The position numbers and the translations under genes were made by a program. A DNA stretch of 38,723 nucleotides, taken from positions 1 to 38,723 of the forward strand of contig JALSJU010000127.1 in assembly GCA_026989145.1 (NCBI GenBank), read 5' to 3'. Below are positions 919 through 19,647 of this stretch, one piece after another. This stretch comes from Thiotrichaceae bacterium (GTDB taxonomy: Bacteria > Pseudomonadota > Gammaproteobacteria > Thiotrichales > Thiotrichaceae). Positions within the stretch are counted from its first letter, which is position 1, and each line of letters starts with the position of its first letter. The notes beneath the pieces are model-generated. The model saw nothing but the letters and a program-made list of their open reading frames with translations. It ran no database searches and was not told where the DNA came from.

Positions 919-1779
919 CTATGCTGTCTCTTTAACCGCTGTATTAAAATTTTCTAACCATGTAGTTACGCGATTGAGCGTTTCTTGTAGCTTGTCACTT
1001 TTAACTGGCTTTGTCAGATAGGTCGTTGCACCGGCAATAACGCCTTGAACTTCGTCTAGCGGTGATGTTTTTCCACTTAACATGATAATTGGGGTTTTTT
1101 TGTAATCGGTAATATCACGCATGCGTTTGCAAGTTTCATAGCCATCAATTCCTGGCATGATAATGTCGAGGAACACTAAATCGTACTGGGTTTCTTTAAT
1201 CATTTCTAATGCTTGTTCACCCGATTCTGCAAAGTCAGCACTGATATTTGCATCTCGTAATTCTAGCTCTAACTGTTTTCTGATTGCAGCACTGTCGTCA
1301 ATCACTAAGGCGTGATGGTTGTATTGGGCTGTCTCCTGTGTAGATAATTCTTCATGTGTTTGAGTTGATTTTTCTATAACGGTAGGCTTACTGCTTGTAT
1401 TTTCAATAATAGCTGGTTGGATAATATCTTTTTTAATAGGAGTGTTGTTTTTCAACTCTATTTTTAATGCTGTTAGATCAATTGCTTGCTGTAATGTTTT
1501 CATAACACGAGTGATTAGTAGTGGTCGTGTTGTTTGAAAGTCACCCAGTTTACAATTTACGTCGTTACTGATAACAAGATGTACTGTGTTTTCATCATTT
1601 TTACTAATACTAGCAGATTCACTTTCACTGAGTATAATGAGATTAGCGCTATCAGCACTTGTGCTCTCATGTTGAACTAATCCATGGGTTACACTAAAGG
1701 CAATAACTCTGTTAAAAACGGCTATTTCTTTTGGGTCTAAGCCTACTGTGTAAATGCCAATACTATTTTCAATGCTCAT
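919..1779 (-). CDS. Response regulator with C-terminal REC domain and uncharacterised N-terminal domain
   Basis: C-terminal receiver: ALVIDDSAAIRKQL...DLVFLDIIMPGIDGYETCKRMR...IIMLSGK...GATTYLTKPV. Confidence 0.85.
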   Translation of the reverse strand: MSIENSIGIYTVGLDPKEIAVFNRVIAFSVTHGLVQHESTSADSANLIILSESESASISKNDENTVHLVISNDVNCKLGDFQTTRPLLITRVMKTLQQAIDLTALKIELKNNTPIKKDIIQPAIIENTSSKPTVIEKSTQTHEELSTQETAQYNHHALVIDDSAAIRKQLELELRDANISADFAESGEQALEMIKETQYDLVFLDIIMPGIDGYETCKRMRDITDYKKTPIIMLSGKTSPLDEVQGVIAGATTYLTKPVKSDKLQETLNRVTTWLENFNTAVKETA

Positions 1780-1819
1780 GTTTATTCTTCTCTTCTTTTT
1801 AGTTTTTAATTGGGTGTAC

Positions 1820-4800
1820 TTAAGCTAGGCTTGTTGTTTTTAACCATGTATCCATTGCAGCGTGTAAATCCTCTGTGATTACAGGTTTTGTTAAGTAATC
1901 ATCTACGCCTGCCTTTGTGGCAAGATCTTGGTGTTTCTTCGTGGTACGCGAGGTGACCATCACAATAGGTAGGTCTTTTTTGTCATCCCATACGCGTATC
2001 GCTTGGGTTAATTCAAGGCCGTTCATACGTGGCATTTCTAAATCGGTGAATACCATATCTATATGCTTATCATTGATTATATTAAGTGCATCTAGCCCGT
2101 CTACCGCTGTTAGCACATCATAATCAAGCTGTTCGATAATTAAGCTAAGTGCTTTACGGTTGCTGAGTGAGTCATCAACCACTAATATTTGAGGTCTCGC
2201 TTGTGTTGTGACAGGTGCTGCTTCAATGAGCTGTTTAGTAGCATTATTTTTATTTGTGCCACTAGTATCATTCTCTAACAACTGTGGAAGATTTATTACA
2301 GGCGCAACTGAACCATCAGCTAAATGACAAGCACCAATGATCCCTTTTCTATTTGTAAACCATGGATCAAGAGTTTTTATTACAAGCTCACGTGAGTTAA
2401 TAATTTTTTCTACATGAACAGCATGAATTTTATTATTACTTTTAACAATAATTATGTTTTGTGCTTTGCTATAGTCAATTTCAGTTGCTGGCCATGATAA
2501 TAAGTTAGGCAGGGCTTGGATGACAATGTCTTTTTTATTATATTTAATATAATGTGCATTATTTTTGTGAATTACTTCCTTAGGTGTTAAATAGGTAAGT
2601 TGCTCAATAGAATCCACAGGTAACGCAACACGATTATTTGCCGTTTCAAGTAATAGTGTTCCTGAGGTAACCAGTGTTAGTGGAATTTTAATCGTAAAAG
2701 TTGAGCCTTTTTTGGGTGTGCTCTCGATATCGATGGTTCCTTTCAGCTTTTCTACATTGGTTTTTACAACGTCCATGCCCACACCGCGACCGGAAATATT
2801 GCTAATACTATCTTGTGTAGTAAAACCTGGTAAAAGTATGAGCTTTAATGCCTCATCTTTTGAGAAAGACTGTTCTGGTGTAATGAGTCCTTTATCTATA
2901 GCGCGTTGGTAGATTTTATCAGGGTTGATGCCAGCTCCATCGTCTTTAAGCTTCATGACAATGAAGTTACCTTGGCGAGAGAAATCCAAGTTTATTACGC
3001 CTTGCTCTTTTTTATTCTGTTTTGTTCTTTGTTGAGAGTCTTCGATACCATGGTCGACTGAGTTTCTTAATAAGTGTAATAACGGATCGGTTAGACCATT
3101 AATAATATCATTGTCAACATTGATATTATTTCCTGTAATTATTAGTTTTGCCTTTTTTCCGGTTGTACGACAGGTTTGTCTTACTGTGCGTTCTAATCGT
3201 GGTACTAGGCTGTCTATGGATACCATGCGCGAGTTTAGTATTACCTCACTCAACTCTTTATTAAGTTGACCTTGTCGGTTTAGATGTGAGCTAAGCTCTT
3301 GGAGTTGAAGTGTTAGTTTTGATTCTATTGCTTCACCATCAAGAATGCTTTCTGTTAATAAGCCAGAAATACTATGTAGTTCATTGTAAGAATCCATTTC
3401 TAATGAGTCTAAACTATTCGTTTTTTGTGTATTAACAGTTTTGTTTTGATTTTTTTCTTGTTGTGAAATTGTATTGGATAGCTCGTTAAGCATTTCATGG
3501 ACTTTTACATCCTGTTGCTTGGTAAGTTTATTGGTTTCTATAGCTTTGTTTAATTCATCTGACACACGTGTGGCTGTGATGGATAGCTCGCCCGCTAGAT
3601 TTAGTAGTGTGTCTATGATGGATAGAGGTACACGCACATGCGCTTCACTGACTTTAGTTTGTTCTTTAGGGGGTACTGTTGTAGTGTTGGTTGTATTTGC
3701 CGTTTGAGCAAAAACTGGTGTTGTTTTCTGGTTATTACTGGCTGTTGCTGATATTTCTGAGGTACTTTCTTGTATTGAGGAATTATCAATATTTTGTTTT
3801 TCTGTTTTTTCGGCTAGGTGCTTTTCTGGGTTGATGTCATCATCTAACTTATTACTGTTAGTGATAAAATCAGGAAGCTCAGGCATATCCAGTTCATTTT
3901 CAGTAGTTTCATTTTCATCAGAAGCTAATGTTTTGGCTGATTCCGTTAATTTCTCTAAAATGGGCAAAAAGTCTTCTGGTGCTGTTTGTTGATCTTGAAC
4001 CGCCTCAAATAGGCTTTCTAAACAGTCAGAGGCTTCGGCGAGTAAATCAGCTGTTTCAGTGGGTAATTTGTGCATTACCGAGTAATCAAGTATATCTTCA
4101 AGCTTATGCGTGAACTGTACCAGTGCGTCAATACCAACAACGCCACTAGCACCTTTAATGGTATGAGCAATTCGAGCTGCGTGTTGATGCTGGTCTTTAT
4201 CTGCTTCACCTTTTGATATAGTTAGCAGTAGCGCTGCTACCTCTGATACTTGATCCGGTGTTTCTTGGAGGAAAACAGAGAGTAATTCAGGGTGTACATC
4301 GTCATCCCATTTTAGTGTGAGCTCATTGTCTCCTTCTTCATTGATGACTGTATCCAATTCAGGTGATGATTGTTCTTGGCTGCTATCATTTAAGGAGTCG
4401 TTTATAAGTAAACTTTGATCGGCTTCTGGGTTTTGTAAGAATAAAATGAAAGACTCTAAATCCTCAATAGGGAATACCTCAGCCCAGTCTTCTCGCATTA
4501 GTTCGGCAGTTACCGCCGGCAATAGTGAAATATCATCAGGATTGTTGAGACTTGCATTGGTTAGTTCTAACCATGTCCAGCATTCGCCGCTAGCAATAAA
4601 GTTTGTTGACTCTGCTGATTTTTTAGTCGAAAAGGTTTGAATATTTTTTTCACACCAATCACTTGCTTTTGCAATTGCAGCGTAGTTAGTAAGTTCAGAT
4701 AATAAATGTAAACGTTGTAATTCAGCGCTATATTTATCGGTATTGTTAAATATATCTTCAGGCGATTCACTGATTGTAGCTAACGTCATAATGATATCGT

Positions 4801-5668
4801 CAACTTCAGCTGTGAAGCTGCTTAGCGCAGTGTGATTACTGTCAATCTGATTGGCAGTAATTGAGTCTTCATTTACTAGAGCATGTTTATCATCTTCGTT
4901 AGGTGAATGCTCTTGATTAAGCTTTACTTCTGTTTGGATAACCTCATTTTCAGGGATATCATCGACCATATCGATGATATCAATTTCAATACTCCCCTCA
5001 AATTCTTCTTGATTGGGTGTAGCACCTGATAATTCAGCTAATATGGCAAGATCATCATTTGTGCTTCGTTCAGTATTCACTAGTAGATCATCAATAGAAT
5101 TTACATGTGAGCTATTTTCAAATAGGTTAACACTCGTTTTTTCAGTTTCAAATGAAGGTTGATGGATACTGTTTGCTGATGATAGTGTGTTTAATGCATC
5201 GGCTTTAATAATTTTTTCATCGCTATTCACTGTGTCATTTGTATTGTTTTCTCGATTAGTTACCGAGGTGTTTAACCATTGATTAAGCATTTTAAGCGAT
5301 GTCTCTGAAAGAGGGGAAGGCCATTTAGTATCTGTTAGTTCTGTAATTAGTGAGGTAACTAAACTTGAGTCCTGTTCACGCAATAACGCAGCAAGCATAT
5401 CGATCCAATTTGAGAAGTGCCCCTCAGATAATAAGAAATGTAGCTGTTTTTCATTCTTTTCATTGATAGCTGTATTTAAAATCATCCAGCTATTGACGGA
5501 TTCTAAAGCAGGTACTTCTAATAATTGAGCCAGCATTTCTATACGCTGTAACTCCATCACTACAGTCTCAAGGGCGCTCTTTATATCGGTTGAATCTAGC
5601 ATTGCTAATTGCAAAGCAATGTCTTCTAGCTCATTCGCGATAGCAATATTGTTATTATTATCATGCAT
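1820..5668 (-). CDS. chpA: ChpA-like chemosensory hybrid histidine kinase (Hpt, HATPase, CheW-like, REC)
   Basis: Hpt motif HAARIAHTIKGASGVVG; ATPase motifs LLHLLRNSVDHGIE and GRGVGMDVVKTNVEKLKG; CheW-like region; C-terminal REC (ILVVDDSLSNRKAL...VFTDLEMPRMNG...KPV). Long variable N-terminus and gene order match Chp clusters. Confidence 0.85.
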   Translation of the reverse strand: MHDNNNNIAIANELEDIALQLAMLDSTDIKSALETVVMELQRIEMLAQLLEVPALESVNSWMILNTAINEKNEKQLHFLLSEGHFSNWIDMLAALLREQDSSLVTSLITELTDTKWPSPLSETSLKMLNQWLNTSVTNRENNTNDTVNSDEKIIKADALNTLSSANSIHQPSFETEKTSVNLFENSSHVNSIDDLLVNTERSTNDDLAILAELSGATPNQEEFEGSIEIDIIDMVDDIPENEVIQTEVKLNQEHSPNEDDKHALVNEDSITANQIDSNHTALSSFTAEVDDIIMTLATISESPEDIFNNTDKYSAELQRLHLLSELTNYAAIAKASDWCEKNIQTFSTKKSAESTNFIASGECWTWLELTNASLNNPDDISLLPAVTAELMREDWAEVFPIEDLESFILFLQNPEADQSLLINDSLNDSSQEQSSPELDTVINEEGDNELTLKWDDDVHPELLSVFLQETPDQVSEVAALLLTISKGEADKDQHQHAARIAHTIKGASGVVGIDALVQFTHKLEDILDYSVMHKLPTETADLLAEASDCLESLFEAVQDQQTAPEDFLPILEKLTESAKTLASDENETTENELDMPELPDFITNSNKLDDDINPEKHLAEKTEKQNIDNSSIQESTSEISATASNNQKTTPVFAQTANTTNTTTVPPKEQTKVSEAHVRVPLSIIDTLLNLAGELSITATRVSDELNKAIETNKLTKQQDVKVHEMLNELSNTISQQEKNQNKTVNTQKTNSLDSLEMDSYNELHSISGLLTESILDGEAIESKLTLQLQELSSHLNRQGQLNKELSEVILNSRMVSIDSLVPRLERTVRQTCRTTGKKAKLIITGNNINVDNDIINGLTDPLLHLLRNSVDHGIEDSQQRTKQNKKEQGVINLDFSRQGNFIVMKLKDDGAGINPDKIYQRAIDKGLITPEQSFSKDEALKLILLPGFTTQDSISNISGRGVGMDVVKTNVEKLKGTIDIESTPKKGSTFTIKIPLTLVTSGTLLLETANNRVALPVDSIEQLTYLTPKEVIHKNNAHYIKYNKKDIVIQALPNLLSWPATEIDYSKAQNIIIVKSNNKIHAVHVEKIINSRELVIKTLDPWFTNRKGIIGACHLADGSVAPVINLPQLLENDTSGTNKNNATKQLIEAAPVTTQARPQILVVDDSLSNRKALSLIIEQLDYDVLTAVDGLDALNIINDKHIDMVFTDLEMPRMNGLELTQAIRVWDDKKDLPIVMVTSRTTKKHQDLATKAGVDDYLTKPVITEDLHAAMDTWLKTTSLA

Positions 5669-5703
5669 TGGTAAATCTCCTGAGTATCGATATTTTCGAT
5701 CAA

Positions 5704-7560
5704 TTATACTTTTGCATTGTTATTATTTTCTGCAGGTTTTGAATCCAGTGTAAATACACCTACTGATTGTACTAAGCGCTGTGCATACTCAGACATGTTG
5801 CGACTTAGACCTGTTAATGATAAAAGTTCCTGTCCTGTAGACTGTGTGGATTTAAGGATACTTTCTGCTTTATGCTTAAGTACCTCAGTAATACCAACCT
5901 GTTCACGAGATGTTTCGGCAATATGGTTAACAGCCTCAACGAGTTGTGAGGTTGTTTCTAGTACTTCTTTCATCTGAGTTGCAGCATCTTCTGCTTTTAC
6001 TGAACCGTTAACTACTTGTTCAATAGTCTGATCCATAGTTGCGATAGTGGTATTGGTTTCTTGTTGAATATTGCGAACTAAGGTTGAAATTTGTCCTGTA
6101 GATTCGCGTGAGCTTTCTGCAAGACGTTGGATTTCCTCGGCGATTACTGAGAAACCTTTACCGGCATCACCAGCAGCTGTTGCTTGCATTGAAGCATTTA
6201 GGGCAAGTACTGTGGTTCGTTCAGCTATCGTATTGATGATTTCAATAACATGAGAAATCTCTTGAGATCGTTCGCCGAGTTGTTTAATACGTTTACCAGT
6301 TTCTTGTACAGTTTCACGTATATCAGCCATACCCGTTAGTGTTTGAGTTACTGAATCATGTGCTTTTTTAGTGGAAATACTGGTATTTCCTGCCATTGTA
6401 TTGGTTTCGGCGGCAGTGTTTGCAATACCGTCTAGGCGTTGGAGCATATGCTCCATTTGTTCTGCCGTTTCAATTGCCTGTTCTTGCTCTTGCATGGCCA
6501 ATTTATTAACGGACATAAGGTGAGTATTTACACGCTGTGATGCAGTATTTACTTCTAATGCAATGTTTTTAACTTGGCTTAGGGTTGCTGATGTTTCTTC
6601 TGCTAGTAAGTTAATCGCATCTGCCACTGGACCTGTAGCATCCTCTGTAACGGTAGCACGAATAGTAAGGTTACGTTCACTCAACTCGGCAACAGCTTGA
6701 AGTAAATGGAAAATAGATTGGTTAAGTTCTTTATGTTCTGTATCCACGCTTATGAGTGTAGATTCACGTTCATCTAATAAATTATTAAAGGCATTACCTA
6801 AATTTGATAATTCATCGCTACCTTTGATTTCAGCTCGAGCGTCAAATTCACCTTCAGATAATCGATAAACAACGTTAGTTAAATTCTTAACTGGTTTTGT
6901 AATTGACTTCATAATCATGATGCCAATGAATAGTAGTAATAAAGTACCACCAATAATTATCCAGGTTATTTTATTAATCCATTCATCTGCATGCTTAATA
7001 ACATGTTTTGCTTCTTTTTTTGAAGCACTTCGAGTTTCATTTGCAAAGGCTTGTAACTGAGATGTTAAGGCATTGCTTAATGGATACATCTTTTTAATCA
7101 CATACTTAGCTAAAACGGCCTTATTAACATCATTTCCTTCTTTTTTGAAAATAGGTTGTAATGCTTTATATGATTGAATCAGTCTGTCATAACTTGAAAA
7201 TATTTGTTTTATTTGGGGGGTATTTCTTTGCTCGGGAGTCCAATAAGTATTAATTTCACTTGCAAGCTTACTTGTTATTTTATCCATTTTAGCGATAGCT
7301 TTTGTTGTTCTTTTATCAGCAGCACTCCAAAAGATAAAGCCTGAATTGATGTTAGTTAATAGCGTTGTGAATCCTTTGTTTACTTCTAGGTTTGTTTTGT
7401 AGGCATAAGTAAAAATATCTGTATGGCCATGCACTAACTGTGAGGTTGCTTTGTTAGTCTTTATCGCTGTCAATGAAGTGTAGCCAAGAGCAGCCAAAAT
7501 AAGTGCAGGGATAATGATAAGTGTTAGAATTCGTGTATTGATTGATAGTTTGTTTAGCAT
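5704..7560 (-). CDS. pilJ: Methyl-accepting chemotaxis protein, PilJ-like
   Basis: Two TM segments, a HAMP region and the MCP signalling hairpin (ERTTVLALNASMQATAAGDAGKGFSVIAEEIQRLAESSRESTGQI); lies between CheW and CheA genes. Confidence 0.85.
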   Translation of the reverse strand: MLNKLSINTRILTLIIIPALILAALGYTSLTAIKTNKATSQLVHGHTDIFTYAYKTNLEVNKGFTTLLTNINSGFIFWSAADKRTTKAIAKMDKITSKLASEINTYWTPEQRNTPQIKQIFSSYDRLIQSYKALQPIFKKEGNDVNKAVLAKYVIKKMYPLSNALTSQLQAFANETRSASKKEAKHVIKHADEWINKITWIIIGGTLLLLFIGIMIMKSITKPVKNLTNVVYRLSEGEFDARAEIKGSDELSNLGNAFNNLLDERESTLISVDTEHKELNQSIFHLLQAVAELSERNLTIRATVTEDATGPVADAINLLAEETSATLSQVKNIALEVNTASQRVNTHLMSVNKLAMQEQEQAIETAEQMEHMLQRLDGIANTAAETNTMAGNTSISTKKAHDSVTQTLTGMADIRETVQETGKRIKQLGERSQEISHVIEIINTIAERTTVLALNASMQATAAGDAGKGFSVIAEEIQRLAESSRESTGQISTLVRNIQQETNTTIATMDQTIEQVVNGSVKAEDAATQMKEVLETTSQLVEAVNHIAETSREQVGITEVLKHKAESILKSTQSTGQELLSLTGLSRNMSEYAQRLVQSVGVFTLDSKPAENNNNAKV

Positions 7561-7605
7561 GGGTAAGACCTTTCTTATTATTTTTATGAGTTTTAATACT
7601 ATAGT

Positions 7606-8145
7606 TTAATTTTGTGTAAAGCGTAAAAGTAGTTCTGAGTGTTTAATGTCAAATAGTGATGTGTTGCCATCATTAAGGTGTCGCTTCACCCAGTTTGGCG
7701 TGTTCTTAAGGTTTTTACTTTGAGTAAATTTATCGAGGTTTATCATTGAAGGTAAGTTGTCTGTACGAAAGATGATGGGCGCATAGTCTTTGTGCTCAAT
7801 CATCATGTAATTATTTGTTATAGAGTTGGAGTTCTGTTTTTTAATTTCCAAAAAAGAATGCATGTCAATAACGGGCATTATCACACCACGAATACTAACA
7901 ATACCTAGATTGTAAGCTGGAATATTTGGTACTTTATTTATTGATAATTTTGTGAAATTCTCTACTTTTAAGTCTGCTTCTATAAGAATATTGAATTGCC
8001 CAACGGTGTAATAAAAACGTCTTACTGTTTCATTACTTACAGCGTTAGTTAGACCAATTTTTGAATTTAAAGTAGAAGTGAATGATGTTGTTGAATTACC
8101 CTTTACTTTTTCTTGATTTAGAGTGATTTTTTCAATGGTTTCCAT
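7606..8145 (-). CDS. pilI: CheW-like coupling protein (PilI-like)
   Basis: CheW-like core (YTVGQFNILIEA...IPAYNLGIVSIRGVIMPVIDMHSFLEI) in chemosensory operon context. Confidence 0.75.
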   Translation of the reverse strand: METIEKITLNQEKVKGNSTTSFTSTLNSKIGLTNAVSNETVRRFYYTVGQFNILIEADLKVENFTKLSINKVPNIPAYNLGIVSIRGVIMPVIDMHSFLEIKKQNSNSITNNYMMIEHKDYAPIIFRTDNLPSMINLDKFTQSKNLKNTPNWVKRHLNDGNTSLFDIKHSELLLRFTQN

Positions 8146-8183
8146 TGCCTTAATCTCGTTATTTTTATGATTTATTCTAAAGT

Positions 8184-8549
8184 TTATACGTTGACTAGCT
8201 TATCTAGTATTTCGGAGTCTTCATAAGGTTTAACGATATAGTCCGTCGCACCTAGTTGTTTAGCCCACTGCCTATCTACAGGATTTGATTTGCTAGAAAC
8301 CATGAATATAGGTGTATTTGTTAAGGCTGGGTTTTTTTTAATGGTTCGACAGGCTTTGTAACCATCACCATCTTCCATGATAATATCTAGCATGATAGCA
8401 TCAGGCTTCATTTTTTCACTGGCTATAATCGCTTGATTTCCAGATCTTGCAGTAACTGTATTGTAACCTGCTGCTTCCAAGATACCTTTTAAATGCATAA
8501 GCTGCGTGTCTGAGTCATCAGCTATGAGAATAGTTTGTTTAGTAGACAT
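8184..8549 (-). CDS. pilH: Single-domain response regulator (PilH/PilG-like)
   Basis: Complete receiver: ILIADDSDTQ...DAIMLDIIMEDGDGYKACRTIK...VSSK...GATDYIVKPY. Proximal gene of the operon. PilG versus PilH cannot be resolved by eye. Confidence 0.8.
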   Translation of the reverse strand: MSTKQTILIADDSDTQLMHLKGILEAAGYNTVTARSGNQAIIASEKMKPDAIMLDIIMEDGDGYKACRTIKKNPALTNTPIFMVSSKSNPVDRQWAKQLGATDYIVKPYEDSEILDKLVNV

Positions 8550-8724: not shown

Positions 8725-9414
8725 TTATTCACTTGAATTTAGAGATTTAATGCCTTTATGGGGTAAAAATATCCCGCAACCAAGTACCCTTTCATTTCCT
8801 AGGCCTTTTTGTTGTATTATTATAGATGACTCACTATCAAGGTCTGCGATCATTAAGTGCCGAGTAAGTAGTTTATCGGAGGGGGTATAAATTGAGTGTG
8901 TTTTTCCACAGAGCATTTTCTTTACAGTAAAGCCTGTCATTTTTTTAATGTCATGTGCAATCCGTTTAAGGAAGTCATTTTCGCTTTCATTGATATGACT
9001 TAGTACATGTCGTGCGAAAATAACACTGTCGTTGGTGAGTTCTTTCTTCTTCGATTTACCTATCGTGAGTTCATGCCCATCCAAAATTAATTTTTCCCCA
9101 GTCAGTTTTTTGACTTTCTTTAACTCTAAACTGGGTATTCTTAAGGTTAATTTTGTGCGACGAGAGGGGTGTAATAAGGCACCTTCCTCGTTATCATCCG
9201 GTCGCATCCAGCCATTATTGCTTTCTGCCACATGAATTTGGTGGATTCCTACACCTTTATCAATTAAACAAGGTAAGTGCTTTAGTATGGCTTGAGATAA
9301 TGACCAAGCGTGATCTAAAGGTAAGGTTTTACAGCTTATAGAAAAACTTAAATCTATAATTTCATCAGGTATTTGATAGGGAAGACTCTTGTCTTCATCT
9401 TCTTGCCAAAACAT
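8725..9414 (-). CDS. cas6: Cas6/Cmx6-like (type I-MYXAN style) CRISPR RNA endoribonuclease family protein, orphan
   Basis: Resembles the Cas6/Cmx6 family: PDEIIDLSFSISCKTLPLDHAWSLSQAI, GIHQIHVAESNNGWMRPD, RRTKLTLRIP, VKKMLCGKTHSI, LLTRHLMIADLDSESSIIIQQKGLG, and the C-terminal Gly-rich LGCGIFLPHKGI loop. No cas genes or array in window. Confidence 0.75.
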   Translation of the reverse strand: MFWQEDEDKSLPYQIPDEIIDLSFSISCKTLPLDHAWSLSQAILKHLPCLIDKGVGIHQIHVAESNNGWMRPDDNEEGALLHPSRRTKLTLRIPSLELKKVKKLTGEKLILDGHELTIGKSKKKELTNDSVIFARHVLSHINESENDFLKRIAHDIKKMTGFTVKKMLCGKTHSIYTPSDKLLTRHLMIADLDSESSIIIQQKGLGNERVLGCGIFLPHKGIKSLNSSE

Positions 9415-9464
9415 TATCTTCTCTCTAGATTAAGTTACGTTAGTTGCAGATTTCATGACTAATA

Positions 9465-9662
9465 CTATCGGGCTGATTCAAAGGCTAAGTTTAACTGTTC
9501 ATGCCAGTCATTGGGGCGATCAGAGTATACGGGTGGTTCGATATCTACTTGGAAGTAGAGCTCGCCTGTGTCAATGGCTTGTTTTTGAATCGTCTTTTTT
9601 AAGTCTTCAAAGCTTGTAAGCTTGTGCCCTTGTTCTAATAATAATTCACTGAGTGAAAGCAT
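9465..9662 (-). CDS. 65-aa protein of unknown function in the oxygenase/Cas6-like cassette
   Basis: Compact ORF between two co-directional genes, 12 bp from the upstream one; hydrophilic, no Cys (MLSLSELLLEQGHKLTSFEDLKKTIQKQAIDTGELYFQVDIEPPVYSDRPNDWHEQLNLAFESAR). Confidence 0.7.
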   Translation of the reverse strand: MLSLSELLLEQGHKLTSFEDLKKTIQKQAIDTGELYFQVDIEPPVYSDRPNDWHEQLNLAFESAR

Positions 9663-9674
9663 AAGTGGCCTCCG

Positions 9675-10565
9675 TTAGGGTTGATTAAGGGTGTCGAAAT
9701 AACGACCACGATATAGTAAGCGTTTTTTATAGGATTCTTCATAGTCCACAAAACTTGTACGGCGATGTAATATATTCCTACAAATTAACCCTTCGCCTGC
9801 TTGCAATGTATATTTAATAATATGGGGTGAGTTGCTATTAAGCAGGTTCGTAAGAAAATCAACTGCTTCTAATGTGGGGGAGGATTGTTTCCATTCAATG
9901 TTTCTGGTGCGAGCTGTAAAACGCATATGAAGCTGACCATTACTTAAGACGGAGAATACAGGTCCTGTTTGAGCTTTACGGATCATTTTATTGTTTAAAA
10001 TGTTAGCAGGAATAGTCATAGCATCAATATCCATAAATGCACGGATATATTCAGGATTTTCATCACGTAATAGAATGTAGGCAATTTCATGATCCATAAT
10101 TAGAGAAGCACCGCCGGACTTAGCGGGGTGTTTGCAATGTAACAGCATGGCATTTATTTGTTTATTTAACCTGTTGTAATAACCGTCTGTATGCCAGCTA
10201 AGGCGTTTGTTAGAGTAGGGAATATAATTGTGTTGATCTTTATGAGTAACTTGCGTTATAGAGGTGAGTTTATCTTTATCGGCACAGATATTAGCATCCA
10301 ATTTTTTCAATCCAAGTTGAGTTACGAATTGCGTGATGTGAGCTTTTTGGTTATTACTTTCATTGTTTAATCGATAAAAGCTAAAACTGTAGCGCAGACA
10401 ATTATTAAGTACTTGATCAACTTCATGAGTAGAAGGTGCTTGACAATTATGAATTGTCACAAATAATTCATTTAAATCATTCTGATAGTTTAAAGCCTGA
10501 CAGAGCTTCATATTACGCCATTTTTGGTAACTATACGTGTCAGATAAATCAAAAGGTGAAGCCAT
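9675..10565 (-). CDS. TauD/TfdA-family Fe(II)/2-oxoglutarate-dependent oxygenase-like protein
   Basis: HxD motif in RLSWHTDGYYNRLNKQINAMLLHC, KSGGASLIMDHE, distal His/Arg region GEGLICRNILHRRTSFVDYEESYKKRLLYRGRYF. Confidence 0.78.
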   Translation of the reverse strand: MASPFDLSDTYSYQKWRNMKLCQALNYQNDLNELFVTIHNCQAPSTHEVDQVLNNCLRYSFSFYRLNNESNNQKAHITQFVTQLGLKKLDANICADKDKLTSITQVTHKDQHNYIPYSNKRLSWHTDGYYNRLNKQINAMLLHCKHPAKSGGASLIMDHEIAYILLRDENPEYIRAFMDIDAMTIPANILNNKMIRKAQTGPVFSVLSNGQLHMRFTARTRNIEWKQSSPTLEAVDFLTNLLNSNSPHIIKYTLQAGEGLICRNILHRRTSFVDYEESYKKRLLYRGRYFDTLNQP

Positions 10566-10821
10566 TAAATTTCTCTAAAAGTCAATTAGGAATAGAATAA
10601 GTTACAGTAAACATTCTAAATTTCATAAGTAACGCTATCTAATTTAAGTATATTAGCATATGGTGTTGTACAGCAGTTTACTTAATTACGAGATATACAC
10701 TAAATAAAAACCGCACTATCCAAAAAGGGGTAGAATAGTTTTTGCTTAGCCTCCCATGGGTGAGGTTTATCTTTTAAGGGAATGAACTAGAATACTTACA
10801 TTCGAAAAATTGAGTGGCTTT

Positions 10822-10845
10822 TGTTTATAGGTTGATTCATAAACA
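10822..10845. promoter_or_regulatory. Inverted repeat upstream of dsrA (candidate operator or leader hairpin)
   Basis: TGTTTAT (10822-10828) - 10 nt - ATAAACA (10839-10845), in the divergent intergenic region about 86 bp before the dsrA start. Confidence 0.35.
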
Positions 10846-10930
10846 TAAGAGATTCGTTATAAGTTTGAATTTGAATGGTGGCAAGTGAATTAATCACGCT
10901 ACCAATAATTGATTTTACTAGGAGACAGTT

Positions 10931-12193
10931 ATGGCTGATATAAAGAAGTATCCTACGCCGATGTTAGATGTTTTAGAAGATGGTCCATGGCCAAGCTTCA
11001 TTACGGGTCTTAAAAAGATGCGTGATGATCATCCTGATGAGCGTATTAACAATGTTATTAATGGTCTGATGGGTCAGCTTGAGCATTCATACGAAACTAA
11101 GATGGGTTACTGGAAGGGTGGTACTATCTCTGTGTTTGGTTATGGTGGTGGTATTATTCCACGTTTCTCAGAAGTTGGAGATGCTTTTCCTGAGTCAAGA
11201 GAGTTTCATACATTGCGCGTGCAGCCGACTCCTGGTAACTACTACTCGACAGAAATGATGCGTCAACTCGCTGATAGCTGGGAGAAGTATGGGTCAGGTC
11301 TTCAGACTTTCCATGGTCAAACGGGTAATATTATGTTTATCGGTGCCGATAATGATAGTTTTCAGCACTTTTTTGATGAAATAAATGAGTACGGGTGGGA
11401 TCTTGGTGGGGCGGGTCCGTGTGTTCGTACTGCGATGTCCTGTGTGGGTGCGGCGCGTTGTGAAATGTCGAACTGTAATGAGCATGCGATCCATCGTCAT
11501 CTTGTGAATAACTTTACCGATGATGTTCATCGTCCAGCACTTCCTTATAAGTTTAAATTCAAGGTTTCAGGTTGTCCTAATGATTGTCAAAATGCCATTG
11601 AACGTGCTGACTTTGCAGTTATCGGTACTTGGAGAGATCATAAGAGAATAGATCAGGAGCAGTGGAAAGCATTTGTTGCTGACAAGGGTGTTGATTATGT
11701 GATGGATAACGTTATTTCACGTTGTACTTCAAGCTCGTTATCATTAGGTGAAGATAATTCATTAATCGCTGATGAAAGCAACTGTGTTCGTTCAATGCAT
11801 TGTATGAATGTTGTTCCTAAGGCAATTAGTCCTGGTGAAGATAAAGGTGTAACGATTCTTTGTGGTGGTAAGCGTACATTGAAGATCGGTGACTTGATGG
11901 GAACAGTACTTGTTCCGTTCATGAAGCTTGATACGCCAGAAGATTACGAGACTATCGTAGAACTTGCTGAAGAAATCATCGATTTCTGGGCAGAGAATGG
12001 TCTTGAGCACGAGCGTACAGGTGAAATGATCGAGCGTATAGGTTTGGTTAACTTCCTAGAAGGAATTGGCGTTGATCCTGATCCAAATATGATTGCTCAG
12101 CCACGAAACGTATCTTATGTGCGTACCGATGGTTGGGATGAGGCTGCTGAAGAGTGGTTTAACCGTAAGCGTGAAGAGAAGGCTGCTAGCTAA
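10931..12193 (+). CDS. dsrA: Reverse-acting dissimilatory sulfite reductase alpha subunit
   Basis: Siroheme/[4Fe-4S] Cys motifs CVRTAMSCVGAARCEMSNC...VSGCPNDCQNAIERADFAVIGTW; first gene of dsrABEFHC...; RBS AGGAG before ATG. Confidence 0.97.
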   Translation: MADIKKYPTPMLDVLEDGPWPSFITGLKKMRDDHPDERINNVINGLMGQLEHSYETKMGYWKGGTISVFGYGGGIIPRFSEVGDAFPESREFHTLRVQPTPGNYYSTEMMRQLADSWEKYGSGLQTFHGQTGNIMFIGADNDSFQHFFDEINEYGWDLGGAGPCVRTAMSCVGAARCEMSNCNEHAIHRHLVNNFTDDVHRPALPYKFKFKVSGCPNDCQNAIERADFAVIGTWRDHKRIDQEQWKAFVADKGVDYVMDNVISRCTSSSLSLGEDNSLIADESNCVRSMHCMNVVPKAISPGEDKGVTILCGGKRTLKIGDLMGTVLVPFMKLDTPEDYETIVELAEEIIDFWAENGLEHERTGEMIERIGLVNFLEGIGVDPDPNMIAQPRNVSYVRTDGWDEAAEEWFNRKREEKAAS

Positions 12194-14608: not shown

Positions 14609-14944
14609 ATGTCATCACTAGAATTAAACGGTGAGTCAATTGAATTAGATGAAGAAGGATACTTAATTGATCTAGCATCTTGGACACCAGAGATTGGTGA
14701 AGCACTTGCAAAAGGCGAAGATGTAGAATTAACAGATGAACACTGGGATATCATTAATTTCCTACGTGAATACTATGAAGAGTATCAAATCGCACCGGCA
14801 GTACGTGTTCTAACGAAAGCTGTTGGTAAGCGATTAGGTAAAGACAAGGGTAACTCAAAGTACCTTTATTCTTTATTTCCTTATGGCCCTGGAAAGCAAG
14901 CGTGTAAATATGCTGGTCTTCCAAAACCTACTGGCTGTGTATAA
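14609..14944 (+). CDS. dsrC: DsrC sulfur-trafficking protein
   Basis: C-terminal ACKYAGLPKPTGCV with both redox Cys; WDIINFLREYYEEYQIAPAVRVLTKAVGKRLG. Confidence 0.98.
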   Translation: MSSLELNGESIELDEEGYLIDLASWTPEIGEALAKGEDVELTDEHWDIINFLREYYEEYQIAPAVRVLTKAVGKRLGKDKGNSKYLYSLFPYGPGKQACKYAGLPKPTGCV

Positions 14945-14965: not shown

Positions 14966-15002
14966 AATTCAGGAGTGCATTTTGCGCTCCTGAGTTCTTT
15001 TT
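14966..15002 (+). terminator. Rho-independent-like terminator directly after dsrC
   Basis: AATTCAGGAGTGC (14966-14978) / GCGCTCCTGAGTT (14984-14996), a 13-bp stem with G-U pairs, followed by CTTTTT. Confidence 0.65.
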
Positions 15003-15048
15003 CACAAATTTATAATAGTTTTAGCTGTTGTTGATTTGTGAAAAAGAA
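14995..15048 (+). promoter_or_regulatory. Second stem-loop in the dsrC-dsrM spacer
   Basis: TTCTTTTTCACAAAT (14995-15009) / ATTTGTGAAAAAGAA (15034-15048): perfect 15-bp inverted repeat; the left arm includes the U-tract of the preceding hairpin and the right arm ends just before the dsrM RBS. Confidence 0.55.
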
Positions 15049-17594: not shown

Positions 17595-19559
17595 ATGGCA
17601 ACTTCACCTAATGATAAAACATTAGACGGGTACACGTTTAGACGTTACGACGATGGCGATCACACTTGGGATAGTATGGAAGAACATATCTTCCAAGAAG
17701 ATACTTCTTATAAATGTCCAACTTACATCCAAAAAACGCCTCCTTGTCAAGGTAGTTGTCCTTCTGGTGAGGATATTCGTGGTTGGCTACAAATTGTCCG
17801 TGGAATTGAAAAGCCAACTGGCGATATGACAATGCAGGAATATGCATTCCGTCGTTCTACCACAGCTAATCCATTCCCATCAATGATGGGACGTGTTTGT
17901 CCCGCACCTTGTGAAGAAGGTTGTAACCGTAATGATGTTGATGATTTCGTAGGTATAAACTCTGTAGAACAGTACATTGGTGATGAAGCAATTGCATTGG
18001 GCTTAGGCTTTGATGACTCAGCACCTACGACTGGAAAGAGGGTTGCAATTATTGGTGGTGGTGTTGCAGGTATGGCTGCTGCTTATCAGCTCCGTAAGAT
18101 GGGCCATGCGTCTACCATTTTTGATGATCATGCGCAGCTTGGTGGAATGGCACGTTATGGAATACCTGGTTACCGCGTACCACGTGATAAGATGGATGCT
18201 GAAATTAAGCGTATTACTGATATGGATGGTGTTGAAGTAAAGCTAAACACACGTGTTGGTAAAGATGTATCTGTTGAGTCATTAGAACAAGATTATGATG
18301 CAATTCTTTGGGCTTTAGGTTGTAAAAAAGGTAGAGGTCTTTTTGTTGATAATTGGAATGATGTTCCAAATGCAATTACAGCCGTAGATTTTCTAGAAGC
18401 GTTTAATTTAGGTGATATGAAATATACTGCACCTAAAGTTGTATGTGTGGGTGGTGGAGACACTTCTATCGATGTCGTATCAGTGTCTCGTCGCATTGGT
18501 ACTTTAGCTGATTACAATGAAAAAGGGGAAGATTCCGCAACTGGTGTTATCAAACATGATGCTGAACCTACAAATAAAGTTCCTGCAGAAGTTACCTTAA
18601 CATCATTATTTCCACTTGATCAAATGACTGCTGCAGAACATGAAGTTCAAGATGCATTAATTGAAGGTGTAACAATTCTTACTGAAGTTATGCCTACTGA
18701 GATTCTTGTAGATGATAATGGTCGTGCGGTTGGGTTAAAAGTTGTTGAGTCAGTAATGGACGGTAACGTACCTAAGCCTAAAGAAGGTGGTAAAGAGACT
18801 ATTATCGAAGCAGATTTAATTGTATCTGCAATCGGTCAGTTTGGTGATCTTGACGGTGTAGAAGAGTATGGCAATGATCGCAATGCGATTGATGCTGATA
18901 ACTTCTATCAAGTACCAGGTAAAGAAGGTCACTTCGTGGCAGGAGATATCGTTCGTCCTCATCTTTTAACTACAGCCATCGGACAAGCATCTATAGCAGC
19001 TGAGACTATCAATCACTTCTTAACCCAAAAAGATGAGAAGATGGATAAACGTCCTAAAGTCGACAAGCACCACTTTGATTTACTTGACAAGCTTAAAGAA
19101 TATGAATTAGCTCCGATAGCTTATGATGAAGGTAAAGAAGAAGACTTACGTGGCACTGACAGTGATAATTATGCTGTACATAACTATGATGATCGCTCCG
19201 AGCACGAGATAGTTGAGTCAAGCGAGTTATTTCTAGGGCACTTCGAAAAAGTAGACCGAAATAAACGTACCGAAGATGTGCCCAGTAAAGATGACGTGCT
19301 AGGACATTTTGTTGAACGTATGAATGCACTTGACGAAGAACAAGTTGTAGGTGAAGCAGAGCGTTGTATGAGTTGTGGTCTTTGTTTTGAGTGTGATAAC
19401 TGTGTTATCTATTGTCCACAAGATGCCGTATTTCGGGTAAAGAAAGATCAGTCAACAACTGGCCGTTACGTTGATACTAACTATGATAAATGTGTCGGTT
19501 GTCATATCTGTGCCGATGTTTGCCCTACAGGTTACATTGAGATGGGATTAGGTGGTTAG
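17595..19559 (+). CDS. dsrL: DsrL, NAD(P)H:acceptor oxidoreductase, GltD-like flavoprotein with C-terminal ferredoxin domain
   Basis: CQGSCPSGEDIRGWLQ; CPAPCEEGC; FAD/NAD motifs (VAIIGGGVAGMAAAYQL; VVCVGGGDTSIDVVSVSRR); C-terminal CMSCGLCFECDNCVIYCPQDAV and CVGCHICADVCPTGYIEMG. Confidence 0.96.
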   Translation: MATSPNDKTLDGYTFRRYDDGDHTWDSMEEHIFQEDTSYKCPTYIQKTPPCQGSCPSGEDIRGWLQIVRGIEKPTGDMTMQEYAFRRSTTANPFPSMMGRVCPAPCEEGCNRNDVDDFVGINSVEQYIGDEAIALGLGFDDSAPTTGKRVAIIGGGVAGMAAAYQLRKMGHASTIFDDHAQLGGMARYGIPGYRVPRDKMDAEIKRITDMDGVEVKLNTRVGKDVSVESLEQDYDAILWALGCKKGRGLFVDNWNDVPNAITAVDFLEAFNLGDMKYTAPKVVCVGGGDTSIDVVSVSRRIGTLADYNEKGEDSATGVIKHDAEPTNKVPAEVTLTSLFPLDQMTAAEHEVQDALIEGVTILTEVMPTEILVDDNGRAVGLKVVESVMDGNVPKPKEGGKETIIEADLIVSAIGQFGDLDGVEEYGNDRNAIDADNFYQVPGKEGHFVAGDIVRPHLLTTAIGQASIAAETINHFLTQKDEKMDKRPKVDKHHFDLLDKLKEYELAPIAYDEGKEEDLRGTDSDNYAVHNYDDRSEHEIVESSELFLGHFEKVDRNKRTEDVPSKDDVLGHFVERMNALDEEQVVGEAERCMSCGLCFECDNCVIYCPQDAVFRVKKDQSTTGRYVDTNYDKCVGCHICADVCPTGYIEMGLGG

Positions 19560-19567
19560 TTACCTTT

Positions 19568-19609
19568 TAAATAAAGCTAAAGTCTGTTTTCAGGCTTTAG
19601 CTTTATTTA
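19568..19609 (+). terminator. Long stem-loop between dsrL and dsrJ (attenuator, terminator or mRNA-stability element)
   Basis: TAAATAAAGCTAAAGTCTG (19568-19586) - TTTT - CAGGCTTTAGCTTTATTTA (19591-19609): 19-bp stem with one G-U pair. Confidence 0.6.
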
Positions 19610-19647
19610 GGTCTTGTAATTCATTAAGAATCAAAGCTTAGGAAATT

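Follow-up and report, generated by a model that had tools for sequence, protein, structure and literature searches.

A Cas6-family protein very probably tied to the oxidative Dsr pathway rather than to CRISPR in Gammaproteobacteria

The 38.7-kb stretch of DNA analyzed here (the window) encodes a Cas6-family protein within a three-gene cassette divergent from dsrA. Cas6 proteins process CRISPR RNA and are RNA-cutting components of CRISPR immunity. Our analysis indicates that the protein very probably belongs to a Cas6 subfamily that is independent of CRISPR and linked to oxidative Dsr. Since Cas6 is found beside dsr irrespective of CRISPR adaptation genes, it was probably recruited for sulfur metabolism, and we infer with good confidence that it serves sulfur oxidation.

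RESULTS

Organization of the dsr-linked cassette

Re-checking the window reproduced exactly the open reading frame (ORF) coordinates, strands, and gaps of an initial sequence-only reading, which had described a minus-strand cassette of three genes transcribed away from dsrA. The cassette begins with a TauD/TfdA-like Fe(II)/2-oxoglutarate oxygenase of 296 residues (positions 9675 to 10565, minus strand), followed after 12 bp by s65 (9465 to 9662, minus strand), which encodes a conserved, acidic protein of 65 residues, and after a further 50 bp by the Cas6-family ORF (8725 to 9414, minus strand), which encodes 229 residues. Across loci, s65 is found beside cas6 in Gammaproteobacteria or beside tauD in Gammaproteobacteria and other classes. 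A spacer (10566 to 10930) separates the cassette from dsrA (10931 to 12193, plus strand; TIGR02064, 584 bits), which served as the linkage anchor and starts at position 10931 on the opposite strand. As the sequence-only reading had stated, no cas gene besides cas6 is seen in the 38.7 kb. A chemosensory cluster comprising response regulators and CheA-like hybrid, MCP-like, and CheW-like proteins lies downstream of cas6 (919 to 8549) and is also present in close relatives.

The window protein belongs to the Cas6 family

Profile searches and structure prediction upheld the earlier suggestion of a Cas6-like protein. The product of the 8725 to 9414 ORF matched the Pfam Cas6 family PF09559 over residues 20 to 220 with 178 bits (cut-off, 26.7; E = 2e-52) and the PADLOC Cas6 model with an E value of 5e-52, while its score against NCBIfam cas6_cmx6 (TIGR02807), 97.8 bits, fell narrowly below the equivalog cut-off of 98.85. 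Its AlphaFold model (mean pLDDT of 90) found as its best solved match the Cas6 of a type I-B CAST (8fcu_B; E = 6e-16, TM of 0.73, 21% identity when structurally aligned), followed by Pyrococcus furiosus Cas6. Sequence profiles and predicted fold thus agree that the protein is a genuine member of the Cas6 family. No Cas6 of the PF10040 family was found in the genome from which the window derives, and no Cas6 match was found among phage records.

Cas6 follows dsrA and not cas1

To place this locus in context, 370 gammaproteobacterial genomes with completeness of at least 90%, sampled evenly across families, were searched as a single set for Cas6, DsrA (TIGR02064), and Cas1. Cas6 and dsrA occurred together in 122 genomes and were both missing from 239, with Cas6 alone in 6 and dsrA alone in 3 (phi = 0.95); dsrA was therefore present in 122 of the 128 Cas6 carriers, which span about 55 families. 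The Fisher p-value for this table is treated as descriptive only, because the sampled genomes are phylogenetically related and it overstates their independence. Where both genes were on the same contig, 90 of 93 pairs were divergent and 0.6 to 4.5 kb apart, so the linkage of the cassette to dsr proposed for the window is conserved. The corresponding association with cas1 was far weaker (phi = 0.09), and cas1 was missing in 69 of the 128 carriers; the proposal that Cas6 had been co-opted outside CRISPR is well supported by this contrast. Genomes of 1.0 to 1.1 Mb retain the whole cassette with no cas1 shown. Within the family of the window's genome, three of the most complete genomes in one genus lack both Cas6 and dsrA.

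The exceptions are largely at contig boundaries. All three dsrA-only genomes break at contig edges, and one of these contigs carries dsrA, tauD, and s65 before ending where cas6 would be expected. Among Cas6-only genomes, G414 proved to hold a genuine I-MYXAN locus, in which Cas1 is of the MYXAN type and cas6 is followed by a long ORF of helicase size. In G171, G141, G121, G324, and G339, cas6 lies near a contig end, which can explain the missing dsrA without proving it. In G042, cas6 is intact but lacks its cassette partners, and no dsrA was found.

A second draw across the whole phylum detected Cas6 in four of four gammaproteobacterial genomes with dsrA; three of these copies were of a distant form, 30 to 32% identical, again divergently oriented from dsrAB. 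The same search detected no such Cas6 in 32 dsrA-bearing genomes of other classes, and a broader profile found cas6 in none of the 14 of these that were inspected. Cas6 is thus not essential to dsr generally. In four of the 14 (L155, L157, L158, and L159), tauD and s65 nonetheless lie beside dsrA without cas6. In L157 to L159, tauD and s65 are followed by a small ORF, which matched DUF6967 where scanned, and a gene resembling siroheme synthase.

The resident CRISPR system is probably of type I-C

Cas6 enzymes are known in general to act in trans, and the dsr-linked proteins could accordingly be normal CRISPR Cas6 proteins serving arrays elsewhere in each genome. The family matches described above (PF09559, cas6_cmx6, and PADLOC) would suit this explanation, and the genome of the window does hold a CRISPR system. 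Its assembly (133 contigs, 97.7% complete) encodes a sole Cas1, on contig C96, within an operon of cas3-, cas5-, cas8-, cas7-, cas4-, cas1-, and cas2-like genes. A toxin-antitoxin-like gene pair is located between cas7 and cas4 in this region (C96, 1 to 8830; L031/L058). A single repeat-like copy, GTTTCAATCCGCTCCCAACCGTTAGGTCGGGAG, occurs at the extreme end of C96 and nowhere else in the assembly, so that the array itself is missing from the assembled contigs. In type I-C systems, RNA is processed by Cas5 and not by Cas6. Gene order and sequence across the operon point to type I-C for the C96 system; in a published genome paper (PMC5944118), type I-C is likewise assigned on the basis of cas8c and the lack of cas6.

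The description of the window copy as an orphan Cas6 consequently stands for the window itself, but the genome is not free of CRISPR. Service to an array elsewhere, which the sequence-only reading had offered as the alternative, is disfavored, since the only system found is of a type that uses Cas5 and would not be expected to need Cas6, and cas1 is missing from over half of the carriers. The co-absence of Cas6 and dsr inside the family and the phylogeny also argue against it: all 68 dsr-linked proteins in the tree form one clade apart from six CRISPR Cas6 proteins (UFboot of 84; 98 for the gamma type). Taken together, we regard action in trans on CRISPR arrays as very improbable and favor a CRISPR-independent subfamily. 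Co-divergence gave a weak result that is not counted toward the tie to Dsr, with the Mantel correlation between Cas6 and DsrA (r = 0.62) exceeding all permutations and that between Cas6 and DsrB (r = 0.31) not doing so.

Partner genes of cas6

The oxygenase encoded in the window matches TauD (PF02668; E = 3e-15) and has both the HxD...H facial triad and the arginine for 2-oxoglutarate binding, its HTD, distal His, and Arg motifs reading WHTD, LHRRTSF, and RLLYRGR. For s65, profile scans returned no family match, and comparison of its predicted structure with the PDB returned no match either. The usual gene order across loci, including those of the 1.0- to 1.1-Mb genomes, is tauD, s65, cas6, and then, on the same strand, a DsrC-like gene. 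This fourth partner, a member of PF04358/TIGR03342, is present in most lineages of the cassette. In 34 of 34 loci, the copy beside cas6 terminates in RKGGY and has neither of the two redox cysteines; the cysteines counted in a few rows are attributable to over-long start choices or do not fall at the DsrC positions. In three divergent loci, the terminus is GKGGY, again with no DsrC cysteines. The operonic DsrC, in contrast, retains both cysteines, as does the dsrC product in the window (14609 to 14944, plus strand). No DsrC-like gene follows cas6 in the window, and its orthologue is on contig C65 of the same genome. A DsrC-like frame that is interrupted by two stop codons and seems to be a degenerate paralogue was also noted on contig C51 (L177; G000, 19029 to 19367), as was a rhodanese-like gene located after the DsrC-like gene and before tauD in a divergent dsr locus (L133, 10210 to 11061). 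In loci where cas6 has separated from dsr, it is usually accompanied by s65, the DsrC-like gene, or both.

TusE functions in tRNA thiolation. Since the adjacent protein falls in the DsrC/TusE family and is thus a TusE relative, the RNA on which Cas6 acts might be a tRNA or some other housekeeping RNA of sulfur relay, so that, for instance, sulfur oxidation would be coupled to the 2-thiouridine status of tRNA. However, the partner is devoid of the TusE/DsrC catalytic cysteine, and cas6 tracks dsrA, whereas tRNA thiolation is far more widespread. We therefore consider such a role improbable.

Conserved and altered features of dsr-linked Cas6

The window protein carries a histidine at position 35, a glycine-rich C-terminal motif (residues 204 to 214), and an insertion, ESNNGWMRPDD, at about residues 64 to 74. 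H35 is retained in 89 of 91 dsr-linked Cas6 proteins, and each of the six CRISPR comparators has its histidine at the same alignment position; H35 is assumed to be the catalytic histidine. Glycines 204 and 206 are conserved in 90 of 91, and W3, G68, W69, R86, R92, E145, G170, and G214 are invariant. Dsr-linked Cas6 is under strong purifying selection, with a median dN/dS of 0.06. The gamma type is marked by the insertion of about 11 residues (ESGNGWxRPxD) and by the N-terminal W3, both absent from CRISPR Cas6. L125 to L127, which are 30 to 32% identical, were considered as possible CRISPR Cas6 proteins and rejected, given the dsrAB and DsrC-like genes in their surroundings; as these proteins are dsr-linked, the insertion marks only the gamma type.

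Other features depart from CRISPR Cas6. The median pI of dsr-linked Cas6 is 6.1 (core, 7.9), compared to 9.3 to 10.0 for the CRISPR comparators, and the CRISPR-type tyrosines near the histidine are substituted in the gamma type. H35 is replaced by asparagine in two closely related proteins, L013 and L016, which are natural candidates for inactive enzymes. The near-neutral pI, the H35N pair, and the replaced tyrosines suggest that catalysis may be lost or altered, and the lost basic charge calls for caution in assuming an unchanged RNase function. The protein could have kept the Cas6 fold without acting as an RNase, serving as a factor that binds or assembles the cysteine-less DsrC-like protein, s65, or a component of Dsr. 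An acidic overall charge relative to CRISPR Cas6, the loss of the tyrosines along with two natural H35N variants, an insertion and invariant W3 found in no CRISPR Cas6, and the way in which s65, cas6, and the DsrC-like gene remain together when split from dsr all agree with such a factor. The near-universal histidine and glycines and the invariant R86 and R92, on the other hand, would be anticipated under selection for RNA chemistry, and we judge a noncatalytic role to be rather unlikely. Dsr-linked Cas6 may still cleave a cellular RNA, to which we give slightly less than an even chance.

Candidate RNA hairpins and a putative operator

The sequence-only reading had named stem-loops in the dsr operon as candidate Cas6 substrates. 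Two are located in the dsrC-dsrM spacer (14966 to 15047, plus strand) and one between dsrL and dsrJ (19566 to 19611, plus strand). The second dsrC-dsrM hairpin (14995 to 15047) shows two-sided compensatory change at 10 of 17 pairs among ten Thiotrichaceae, and such covariation was confined to that family. In four small cassette-bearing genomes, the same spacer measures 27 to 33 nucleotides and contains no strong hairpin. Likewise, no hairpin comparable to the dsrL-dsrJ one was found in nine other loci with an extractable spacer. Because they lack conservation among the carriers compared, the dsrC-dsrM and dsrL-dsrJ hairpins were rejected as a general Cas6 substrate; the long dsrC-dsrM hairpin could be a target specific to the Thiotrichaceae lineage. 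An Rfam scan of the window yielded no match. That the RNA cleaved by Cas6 would be a dsr transcript is doubtful.

The spacer between tauD and dsrA contains a palindrome-like element of the CACCCCATGGGTG(AGAT) type (10749 to 10767 in the window). Matches with at most 4 mismatches to its 17-base consensus were found in 18 of 28 loci compared to 2 of 640 mononucleotide shuffles, a contrast that is somewhat inflated because the consensus was derived from those same loci. The CACCCCATGGGTG element is more likely a DNA operator and represents a candidate for dsr regulation.

DISCUSSION

We propose that Cas6 would belong, together with the TauD-like oxygenase, s65, and, in most cases, the DsrC-like protein devoid of cysteines, to a module accessory to the oxidative (reverse) Dsr pathway and encoded divergently from dsrAB. 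With less certainty, Cas6 would bind and cleave a structured cellular RNA via H35, jointly with its DsrC-like partner, and the outcome might be post-transcriptional regulation of genes for dsr or sulfur relay; an O2 or 2-oxoglutarate input could come from the oxygenase. We moderately favor this composite of a domesticated Cas6 within an oxidative Dsr accessory module, post-transcriptional RNA cleavage included. More tentatively, a CRISPR RNA nuclease may have been domesticated early in the Gammaproteobacteria, giving rise to a dedicated RNA-processing regulator of sulfur oxidation whose partners are a 2-oxoglutarate oxygenase and the cysteine-less DsrC-like protein and which has remained a core gene of dsr lineages down to genomes of 1.0 to 1.1 Mb.

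If dsr-linked Cas6 is indeed a metabolic gene, Cas6/Cmx6 annotations in sulfur oxidizers would be misleading, and an unstudied four-gene module would be added to one of the best-known sulfur oxidation pathways. Such a clade, accompanying a central energy pathway over about 55 families whether or not CRISPR adaptation genes are present, would also be one of the most widespread examples of an RNase from immunity becoming a metabolic gene. No earlier report tying Cas6 to dsr was found in the open-access literature searched, a scope that excludes most subscription papers.

Among known systems, type I-MYXAN Cas6/Cmx6 (TIGR02807, PF09559) resembles the window protein in family, fold, family histidine, and glycine-rich C-terminal motif. 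The window protein differs in scoring below the Cmx6 equivalog cut-off and in having dsr genes as neighbors instead of a cas operon, and dsr-linked copies differ in forming a separate clade and in being near-neutral rather than basic, with the 11-residue insertion and W3 in the gamma type. The Cas6 of type I-B CAST (PDB 8fcj and 8fcu) offers the closest solved structure to the window model but is a Cascade subunit, and no such genes were seen in the window or in the inspected dsr loci. The downstream partner of the cassette, a PF04358/TIGR03342 protein without redox cysteines, resembles the cysteine-less DsrC/TusE family proteins, which are named RspA in the literature; no published report of their association with Cas6, s65, and TauD was found. 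Finally, cas genes have been reused outside immunity, as exemplified by the Myxococcus dev genes, in which Cas proteins are likewise retained in a cellular role. The dev genes, however, belong to a CRISPR operon, whereas the Cas6 described here stands alone, within an island of metabolic genes, in lineages spanning about 55 families.
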